Positions 42,609 through 44,884 of a stretch of 44,884 bases of DNA are shown piece by piece; position 1 is the first letter of the stretch, and each line of letters starts with the position of its first letter. Position numbers and translations under genes: made by a program. Below the pieces are notes generated by a model. That model searched no databases, had not been told where the DNA came from, and was given only the letters and a program-made list of their open reading frames with translations. Origin of the DNA: Actinomycetes bacterium (GTDB lineage Bacteria > Actinomycetota > Acidimicrobiia > Acidimicrobiales > Ilumatobacteraceae); contig JANYCT010000024.1 in NCBI GenBank assembly GCA_025360105.1, positions 1 through 44,884 on the forward strand, read 5' to 3'.

Positions 42609-44051
42609 ATGGAACGTGCGCTCCCCGACGGACTCGTAGTCATCGTCAAACGGGAATGTGCGACGTGCGCGATGGTGGTGCCAGTTCTCGAACGCCTCCA
42701 CGCCACGATCTACACACAAGACGATCCCGCGTTTCCCGAAGGTCTGCACGCCATCCACGACAGCGACCTCAGCGTGAGCTGGCATCTCGACATCGAGACC
42801 GTGCCCACGCTGCTGCGCGTGATCGACGGCCGCGAGGTAGATCGCACCGTGGGCTGGAGCCGGGCAGCGTGGCAGGCCATCACCGGCATCGATGACCTTG
42901 GTGACGATCTGCCTGTGGTGCGACCCGGCTGCGGATCACTGTCGGTGGATCCCGATCGTGTCGACGAACTCCGCGTCCGTTTCGGAGGCGACGTGCTCCG
43001 TGCCCGACGCGTAGAACTCGCCGACGCCGAAGATGACATGGAAGCGATGTTCGATCGCGGCTGGACCGATGGCCTGCCCGTGACACCGCCCACCGAGGCA
43101 CGCGTGTTGCGTATGCTGACTGGCACCACGCGAGCACCGAGCGACGTGGTGGCTGTGGTGCCGCCAGATCTCGCGGAGGTCACCGTCGAGAAGGTGGCGA
43201 TCAATGCAGTCATGGCAGGCTGCACCCCCGAATACCTACCGTGGGTCATTGCCGCGCTCGAGGCCGTGTGTACCAACGAGTTCAACATCCATGGCGTACT
43301 TGCCACCACGATGCCCGTTGGCCCCGTGGTCATCTGCAACGGCCCCGGCACCCGCGCGATCGGCATGAACAGCGGCATGAATGTGCTCGGCCAGGGCAAC
43401 CGCGCCAACATGACCATCGGTCGCGCGTTGCAGCTGATCATTCGCAATGTGGGCGGTGGACGCCCAGGCGAAGTCGACCGCGCCACCCATGGCAACCCCG
43501 GCAAGCTCAGCTTCTGTTTCGCCGAGGACGAACTCGGCTCGCCATGGACCTCGCTCGCAGTCGCTCGGGGGTTGGCCCGTGACACTGACTCCGTCACCGT
43601 GTTCGCTGGTGAAGGTCCGCGCTGCGTCGTGGACCAACTTGCCCGCGACCCTGACAGCCTGGCCAACACGTTTGCAGCATGCCTGCGGACGCTGCACAAT
43701 CCCAAACTCGTGCTCGCCTTCGACGCCATCGTGATCATGGGTCCCGAGCACGCCCGGGTGTTCGCCGACGCCGGCTGGGACCGAGACCGCGTGCTTGCCG
43801 AGATCCATGCCCGCCTCCAGTTGCCCGGCAGCGAATTGGTCCGCGGCGCAGCCGGTATCGCCGAAGGTATTCCCACCCATCTCGCCGATGTGACACTGCC
43901 CAAGTTCCGACCCGATGGACTCCTGCTGGTACACGCCGGTGGCGGTGCGGGCTTGTTCTCGGTCATCATTGGCGGATGGGCGAACGGCGAGGTCGGCAGC
44001 CAGCCCGTTACACAAATCGTCAATCCGCCCACCGAACAGGGAGCACCATGA
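42609..44051 (+). CDS. Thioredoxin-like domain fused to a large domain, partner of the downstream selenoprotein
   Basis: A 480-residue protein. Residues 1 to about 95 look like a thioredoxin fold: C-A-T-C redox motif at residues 17-20 and a probable cis-Pro in E-T-V-P-T. The remaining part (about 110-475) is one uncharacterised domain with G-W-T-D-G-L-P-V-T-P-P-T near its start, then M-A-G-C-T-P-E-Y and Gly-rich loops (N-G-P-G, H-A-G-G-G-A-G-L). I recall this domain occurring next to UGSC-type proteins, but cannot check. Its stop overlaps the ATG of the selenoprotein gene by 4 nt (ATGA), so both proteins are made together. I infer that the thioredoxin domain reduces, or exchanges electrons with, the Sec/Cys centre of the partner. 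Substrate is unknown. Confidence 0.8.
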   Translation: MERALPDGLVVIVKRECATCAMVVPVLERLHATIYTQDDPAFPEGLHAIHDSDLSVSWHLDIETVPTLLRVIDGREVDRTVGWSRAAWQAITGIDDLGDDLPVVRPGCGSLSVDPDRVDELRVRFGGDVLRARRVELADAEDDMEAMFDRGWTDGLPVTPPTEARVLRMLTGTTRAPSDVVAVVPPDLAEVTVEKVAINAVMAGCTPEYLPWVIAALEAVCTNEFNIHGVLATTMPVGPVVICNGPGTRAIGMNSGMNVLGQGNRANMTIGRALQLIIRNVGGGRPGEVDRATHGNPGKLSFCFAEDELGSPWTSLAVARGLARDTDSVTVFAGEGPRCVVDQLARDPDSLANTFAACLRTLHNPKLVLAFDAIVIMGPEHARVFADAGWDRDRVLAEIHARLQLPGSELVRGAAGIAEGIPTHLADVTLPKFRPDGLLLVHAGGGAGLFSVIIGGWANGEVGSQPVTQIVNPPTEQGAP

Positions 44052-44572
44052 GCACTGTCATCCTCGACCCCACCAACGAGCGCCGTCTGGCCGAGATGAC
44101 TCGCTGCGCCCGGCCCGCGTCGCTCGCAGGCCTGACCATCGGCCTGCTCGACATCTCCAAAGCACGTGGCGATGTGTTCTTGAACCAGCTCGAGCAACGC
44201 CTTCTCGAAACAGGCGCCACAGTGAAGCGCTTTCGCAAACCAACCTTCACCAAGCCCGCACCCGTCGACTTACGCCACGAGATCGCCAGTCAGTGCCAGG
44301 TGGTCATCGAAGCCTTGGCCGATTGAGGCAGTTGTACGTCGTGCAGTGTGCACGACATCGTTGATCTCGAGCGCCGCGGCATTCCCGGCGTGTTCGTTGC
44401 GTCGGGCGAATTCGTCACCGCCGCCGAGTCGCAGTCGATCTCGCTCGGCTTTTCCACCGTGGCACGGGTCTTCACGCCGCACCCCATCCAGGACCGCACC
44501 GACGACGAGATGCGCGCGTATGCCGACCTCGCTTTCGACGACATCGTTGCGGCGATCACCAGCGCGAGATAG
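44048..44572 (+). CDS. UGSC-type selenoprotein (TGA at 44324-44326 read as selenocysteine)
   Basis: A 174-residue protein if the in-frame TGA is decoded as Sec93. Residues 1-92 start M-S-T-V-I-L-D-P-T and include a G-L-L-D-I-S-K segment. Then comes A-D-U-G-S-C-T-S-C-S-V-H-D, and 73 more residues to a TAG at 44572 (R-R-G-I-P-G-V-F-V-A-S-G-E-F is well formed). Reading frame, codon use and protein character continue smoothly across the TGA. An 8-bp stem with a G-first 3-nt loop begins 12 nt after it, as in bacterial SECIS elements. The U-G-S-C motif matches the UGSC family of (seleno)proteins as I recall it from NCBI family names. U93, C96 and C99 give possible U-x-x-C and C-x-x-C redox pairs. 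A stop-codon pseudogene is the alternative. The sel genes are not in the window. Confidence 0.83.
44338..44356 (+). promoter_or_regulatory. Bacterial SECIS-like hairpin
   Basis: GTCGTGCA (44338-44345) pairs perfectly with TGCACGAC (44349-44356) around the loop GTG. The loop starts 19 nt after the TGA and its first base is G, which fits the published bacterial SECIS model (apical loop 16-37 nt from UGA, G among the first two loop bases). The hairpin lies inside the coding frame. Confidence 0.78.
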
Positions 44573-44601: not shown

Positions 44602-44884
44602 TCACGCCGCCCGCCGAGGAGGCGGCCCCGTGGTCATAACGGTCTCGTCCGGTAAGGAAATGATCAGCGTTCGATCGTCGAGCAGCGTAAGCGCCCATCC
44701 ATCGTTGTGCACATTGCGGTGGTGCTTGCTGCAGATCGGCACAAGGTTGCAGAGATCGGTGCGGCCGCCGTGACGCCACCAGTGCACGTGATGAATTTTG
44801 CAGTACTGGAAGCGCACCTGACAACCGGGCACTGCGCACGTGCCATACAGCCCGCGCAACGCTCGTCGCTGCGCCGCGTTGGCG
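44602..44884 (-). CDS. HNH endonuclease-domain protein, C-terminal part
   Basis: About 94 codons are visible; the frame is open to the right edge, so the N-terminus is missing. The segment A-Q-R-R-A-L-R-G-L-Y, then C-A-V-P-G-C, C-K-I-H-H-V-H-W-W, and L-V-P-I-C-S-K-H-H-R-N-V-H is the HNH nuclease with its zinc cysteines and H-H motif, as at the end of DUF222-HNH proteins common in actinobacteria. These are often multi-copy and of uncertain role, possibly mobile-element related. Convergent with the selenoprotein gene, 29 bp apart. Confidence 0.87.
   Translation of the reverse strand, partial: ANAAQRRALRGLYGTCAVPGCQVRFQYCKIHHVHWWRHGGRTDLCNLVPICSKHHRNVHNDGWALTLLDDRTLIISLPDETVMTTGPPPRRAA

Follow-up and report, generated by a model that had tools for sequence, protein, structure and literature searches.

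Glycine reductase and D-proline reductase have been studied in clostridia, and the organisms that carry UGSC proteins are different ones. In these reductases the selenoproteins GrdB and PrdB have a pyruvoyl partner, GrdE or PrdA. The motif of GrdB is given as UxxCxxC in the available text of a 2026 review (PMC13188914), which also counts UGSC among the selenoprotein families whose functions are largely uncharacterised. According to the available text of PMC2398784, a study with 255 selenoprotein sequences, UGSC ranks with the most frequent selenoprotein families of the Global Ocean Sampling metagenomes, in marine and non-marine samples alike. The same text takes UGSC as a likely thioredoxin-like (Trx-like) redox protein and describes a UGSC/Unknown_1 fusion, in which a UGSC protein is joined to an unknown conserved domain. 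The UGSC family itself is already in print; what is new here is a near-constant companion of UGSC, a domain hereafter called P2, and a relation between UGSC and GrdB/PrdB. In the UGSC literature consulted, which lies mostly outside subscription papers and was available in part, no description of the companion was found beyond the name 'Unknown_1', and no description of the GrdB relation was found.

The window, by which is meant the whole stretch of 44,884 nucleotides that was analysed, comes from an actinobacterial genome of 3.9 Mb in 105 contigs and carries a UGSC gene near the end of its contig (C44). On the forward strand (44048-44572), the frame opens at ATG 44048, meets a TGA at 44324-44326, continues through 81 sense codons, and closes with TAG 44570-44572, just as the original prediction had read it. 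The residues directly after the TGA are G-S-C-T-S-C; with selenocysteine (Sec) as residue 93, this gives the U-G-S-C motif noted earlier, in a joined protein of 174 residues. The start-like GTG 44348, which had been named as the only candidate past the TGA, does exist, but it is not alone, since GTG 44390, GTG 44459, and ATG 44510 are also in frame, all of them deeper in the domain. The joined protein matches PF24696 with 152.5 bits (cut-off 25) and NF041046 with 160.5 bits (cut-off 125), while the halves before and after the TGA score 59.0 and 72.8 bits against PF24696, each onto its own half of the model. A frame that stays open for 81 codons after the TGA arises in 27% of first-order Markov simulations. 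What exceeds chance in this frame is the homology, because both halves match PF24696. The open frame and the stability of the single-sequence hairpin were also considered as proof of Sec, and both were dropped since neither is significant alone. The window protein has the sequence, the U-G-S-C motif, and the Sec/Cys exchange of the NF041046/PF24696 family, and no trait was seen that sets it apart from the other members. Judged by its sequence, it adds one more member to a family already known, for which the original prediction gave no established reaction.

The TGA at 44324-44326 is very probably read as selenocysteine, as is shown by comparison with homologous sequences. The comparison is based on 92 distinct UGSC places, with identical sequences counted once: the window, the 30 best, about 50 picked from the matches listed, and 10 plasmid records. 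One alignment (A1) holds 73 of the 92 places and another (A3), with the plasmid rows left out, holds 63. In the 73 aligned members, the columns of U/C93 and C96 are invariant, and the in-frame TGA has Cys homologues at the same column, so that homologues with Cys or Sec at residue 93, which had been proposed as a check, do exist. An in-frame stop at the Sec codon is common to several genera and phyla; therefore, a read error, which the original prediction had named as a possible refutation, does not explain the TGA. As for the sel genes looked for in the source genome, SelA was found at 333.8 bits and SelB at 282.8 bits (cut-off 242.25), together with a tRNA-Sec whose anticodon is tca (UCA), whereas SelD is represented only by a C-terminal fragment below the cut-off (82.9 bits vs 125). 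This fragment begins at base 1 of its contig and is read as the result of an assembly break.

TGA-bearing UGSC genes go together with SelA, and Cys-only ones do not. Of 296 genomes sampled across the class, 104 contain UGSC and 206 SelA. Among the matches listed, SelA is present in 80 of the 82 genomes with a TGA-bearing UGSC (in the other two, G188 and G292, SelA was not found) and in 3 of the 11 genomes whose listed UGSC rows all lack the stop, a count that omits 11 of the 104 UGSC genomes and in which 'Cys-only' is judged on the matches listed. The Cys groups used for comparison, here and for the hairpin below, comprise few members (22 sites, 11 genomes), mostly from other subfamilies. In two loci of Geodermatophilaceae, L166 and L187 (codon 9344-9346; Blastococcus, Geodermatophilus), TAG stands exactly at the Sec codon. 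Selenocysteine at UAG is reportedly the subject of a paper by Mukai and colleagues. A tRNA-Sec with a CUA anticodon and UGSC genes are reported for the Geodermatophilaceae in the available text of PMC5330540; the two TAG loci agree with this and are counted as independent support for Sec.

A SECIS-like hairpin is located at 44338-44356 on the forward strand. Its stem of 8 bp (44338-44345 with 44349-44356) begins 11 nt past the TGA, and its loop is the GTG at 44346-44348. Bacterial SECIS elements have a loop of 3-14 nt with a G in the first two loop bases, a stem of at least 4 pairs, and a distance of 13-37 nt from the UGA to the loop; these criteria were applied to the Sec and Cys sites. Such a hairpin was found at 121 of 138 distinct Sec sites, as compared with 17% expected under synonymous recoding, and at 6 of 22 Cys sites, as compared with 16% expected. 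The covariation set comprises 73 of 119 window-like Sec sites, in which 97.6% of the stem cells are paired. Ten cells are changed on both sides, while the shuffles give 1.0 and none of 500 reaches ten; less telling are the two pairs with a change on both sides, a number reached by 42 of 500 shuffles, and the four further pair types, reached by 292 of 500. Eight sequences have Trp instead of Cys at residue 99 (TGG, not TGC); the pair is kept because the partner base changes silently in a Val codon, from GTG to GTC. Since the Sec sites are related, the paired changes may represent few events. Taken singly, the window hairpin is no more stable than its shuffles (z 0.82), with a z of -0.37 against synonymous recoding, and an Rfam scan of the window gave no match. 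Overall, the selenoprotein reading proposed at the outset is supported by the family match, by SelA, SelB, and tRNA-Sec, by the conserved U/C93 column, and by the SECIS-like hairpins of the family. The truncation by gene annotation that had been foreseen occurs as well; in Acidovorax sp. T1, the homologue is listed as a 'hypothetical protein' that ends at the TGA. The partner gene and the kinship with glycine and proline reductases, described below, are not part of that prediction.

Upstream of UGSC on the same strand lies a partner gene of 480 residues (42609-44051), the stop of which overlaps the UGSC start as ATGA 44048-44051. The choice of ATG 42609 as its start is a judgement; the frame is open from GTG 42474, and conservation with homologues begins just past ATG 42609. 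Neither Pfam nor NCBIfam matches the gene at E 0.001, and its two closest named relatives among the matches listed (84% and 79% identical) carry the titles Acidimicrobiales and Acidimicrobiaceae. Two domains can be recognised in its product. The first 114 residues (42609-42950, forward strand) form a thioredoxin-like domain with CATC at 42657-42668, which finds the PDB thioredoxins with E 4.2e-5 by phmmer and, as a profile of 16 rows, with E 1.4e-6. The P2 core domain of about 350 residues (42951-44015, forward strand) follows. In an alignment of 71 rows, D40, G41, T48, G90, G131, G157, R158, and E192 of P2 (domain numbering) are invariant, and C189 is found in 67 of the 71. P2 has no relative among the PDB sequences up to E 10, and the 71 members gave chance-level hits only against Pfam.

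It is shown by sequence comparison that UGSC forms a unit with the upstream gene encoding the thioredoxin-like domain and P2. P2 is located within 600 bp and on the same strand at 91 of the 92 distinct UGSC places, upstream of UGSC at 65 and downstream at 26, and the single place without it sits at a contig end. Of the 296 genomes, 102 contain both, 2 UGSC alone, 3 P2 alone (105 with P2 in total), and 189 neither. The two genes also adjoin in all ten plasmid records, which come from haloarchaea, proteobacteria, and actinomycetes; in one of these plasmids (L145), P2 is split across two frames. The relation was also followed from the side of P2, using 80 GTDB loci found via the partner domain; these are the best 80 of at least 585 confirmed and therefore lean towards the window type. 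UGSC adjoins P2 in 71 of these best 80 loci, with TGA in 67, Cys in 1, TAG in 2, and a cut before the motif in 1; three further loci are contig ends and six are without an adjoining UGSC. UGSC lies 4-7 kb from P2 in L154, L161, and L229, and on the opposite strand no more than about 1 kb away in L183 and L185, and it was not found in the 1.3 kb of sequence remaining in L213.

Natural fusions of UGSC and P2 in a single frame occur in L062 (5905-7614) and L072 (170-1888, reverse strand), one with Sec and one with Cys. They resemble the UGSC/Unknown_1 fusion in the available text of PMC2398784, and Unknown_1 is perhaps the same as P2. A predicted model of a UGSC-P2 fusion, built from unpaired rows, has a mean pLDDT of 84, and its fold matches mostly cover the UGSC domain. 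With regard to copy number, up to eight UGSC places with distinct motifs are present per genome among the matches listed (G123, G076, G250, and others), with such paralogue motifs as YGHUGSCTSGTVRD, FGGUGSCSARSLRD, and SADUGSCTSWSVHD; each of the multi-copy places that were fetched has its own adjoining P2. On the plasmid of Acidovorax sp. T1 (L141, 8001-9527), the P2 gene is missing from the PLSDB gene table, a table that by design does not list every gene.

Genes for Sec decoding and for electron supply are found near some of the pairs. Within about 5 kb, selA is present in 10, selB in 10, both in 9, and either in 11 of the best 80 of at least 585 loci, and tRNA-Sec(tca) in 7, many of these loci ending at contig ends. 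In the same set the order selA-selB-Trx/P2-UGSC is seen in four loci (L157, L159, L160, and L162), titled Acidimicrobiaceae, Ilumatobacteraceae, or Actinomycetota, and the order P2-UGSC-selA-selB in five (L180, L193, L198, L206, and L218), titled beta- or gammaproteobacteria or genera thereof. An in-frame extension with a CxxC precedes P2 in 72 of the best 80 of at least 585 loci (window type); in the 16 rows compared by profile, it is thioredoxin-like. This tally replaces one made in 3.4-kb loci (32 of 48), which is unreliable because many of those loci are cut inside the partner gene. In Arthrobacter, trxB, trxA, P2, and UGSC (Cys form) are consecutive separate genes. On the plasmids, trxB is annotated at three of the ten loci, and a fourth has a frame like it; a search of 60 class loci found no trxB, and in the best 80 of at least 585 GTDB loci it turned up, at a distance, in just 2.

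The predicted model of the UGSC protein (mean pLDDT 95.2, pTM 0.89) is built of five strands in alternation with five helices and places Sec between strand 85-91 and helix 94-109. The solved folds listed as matches are mostly receiver and other Rossmann-like proteins; first among them is a subunit of an activation complex for methyl-coenzyme M reductase (Z 11.4, rmsd 3.4, 133 aligned). The thioredoxin-like fold assumed for UGSC in the available text of PMC2398784 is supported neither by the profile (1.86% against thioredoxin-like domains) nor by the model; thioredoxins are absent from the fold matches listed, an absence that is no proof. In sequence searches, UGSC gave three chance-level hits only against the PDB. 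Pfam MCR_C is weakly matched by one of the 63 UGSC members (E 0.022), which, together with the top fold match, possibly points to shared ancestry.

A distant relation of UGSC to GrdB/PrdB appears in profile comparisons. Against 17 or 20 GrdB/PrdB-like proteins of the same class (alignment A7 holds 17 of the 20 loci), the UGSC profile reaches 91.9% or 91.4%, Sec on Sec, with E 7.2e-7 in the 91.9% run. Ten control families, thioredoxin and nine others, stay at or below 1.9%, and the score of 48 compares with at most 18.4 in 20 column shuffles. With the motif masked the value is 73%, against the 17 short PrdB-like rows only it is 66.8%, against three full-length GrdB rows 61.6%, and against a single PrdB-like sequence 0.4%; the relation spans 62-81 columns. 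The PrdB-like profile itself reaches 12.3% against thioredoxin and has no solved relative among the PDB sequences. UGSC resembles GrdB/PrdB (PF07355) in the Sec-on-Sec match and in the link to thioredoxin, and U93, C96, and C99 of the window type stand at the UxxCxxC spacing that the available text of PMC13188914 gives for GrdB. It differs in that there is no direct match to PF07355, either for the window protein at E up to 1 or among the 25 of 26 families listed for 63 UGSC members at E up to 1, and in that the partner P2 has no resemblance to GrdB by profile. In the loci of the same class that match PF07355 (L120-L139), the matched frame stops at a TGA in all 20 loci read, with a conserved continuation past the TGA and a Sec-like context. 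The source genome has a PrdB/GrdB-like match to PF07355 of its own (C88:19116-19478).

The near-constant partner beside UGSC suggests an enzyme of two parts that is driven by thioredoxin. By analogy, UGSC and P2 probably make up a thioredoxin-fed, two-subunit selenol reductase that would work like the GrdB/PrdB part of glycine or D-proline reductase, a reading held with moderate confidence. The UGSC and P2 proteins would be one enzyme, in which P2 may bind a small substrate and Sec93 of UGSC would attack it, so that the substrate is reductively cleaved or reduced. C96, together with C99 in the window type, may resolve the oxidised Sec, and the fused thioredoxin-like domain would re-reduce Sec, drawing its electrons from thioredoxin reductase. 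Where a genome has several paralogous pairs, these might act on different substrates. The wider proposal, put forward tentatively, is that UGSC and P2 represent a superfamily of two-subunit selenol reductases fed by thioredoxin. It would be a branch of the chemistry known from glycine and D-proline reductase, in which paralogous pairs serve different small substrates and P2 is a novel kind of substrate subunit. The plasmid neighbours of the pair, as a raw list with no background count, include CoA-transferases, lyases, and small-molecule transporters (TRAP/tricarboxylate), and the families that recur, also with no background count, include acyl-CoA dehydrogenase, thiolase, and SDR as well. No substrate is named for UGSC-P2, because this tally has no background count.

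The same gene pair could be explained in other ways. UGSC-P2 might be a thiol/selenol oxidoreductase for proteins or peroxides that serves in redox defence, with the thioredoxin-like domain still acting as electron donor. The fusion of this domain to the partner and the Trx-like label in the available text of PMC2398784 are in line with such a role, which nevertheless seems rather unlikely: the UGSC model, with its alternating strands and helices, and a profile unlike thioredoxin (1.86%) point away from it, as do the up to eight UGSC places per genome among the matches listed and the plasmid neighbours, CoA-transferases, lyases, and small-molecule transporters, for which there is no background count. 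Handling of selenium or of a metal, or the maturation of another enzyme, instead of a catabolic role would fit the presence of selA, selB, or tRNA-Sec near some pairs and the closest solved fold among the matches listed, that of the methyl-coenzyme M reductase activation complex subunit. However, selA or selB is found in only 11 of the best 80 of at least 585 loci (many of them cut by contig ends), Cys-type UGSC and P2 are also present in genomes with no match to SelA, and sharing a common fold shows no function; this explanation is considered improbable. Finally, the TGA could be a true stop that leaves a 92-residue protein or a pseudogene, and the chance frequency of such an open frame given above would allow it, but the conserved Sec/Cys column, the SECIS-like hairpin, the Sec machinery, and the TAG in relatives make this extremely unlikely.

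If the selenol-reductase reading is true, it would give a function to one of the most frequent selenoprotein families of ocean and freshwater metagenomes. The near-constant partner, the thioredoxin-like domain of the window type, and the distant relation to glycine and proline reductases make the function of UGSC testable. The case also warns that gene annotation can cut a protein at a TGA. At the end of the window, the reverse-strand stretch 44602-44859 looks HNH endonuclease-like by eye.
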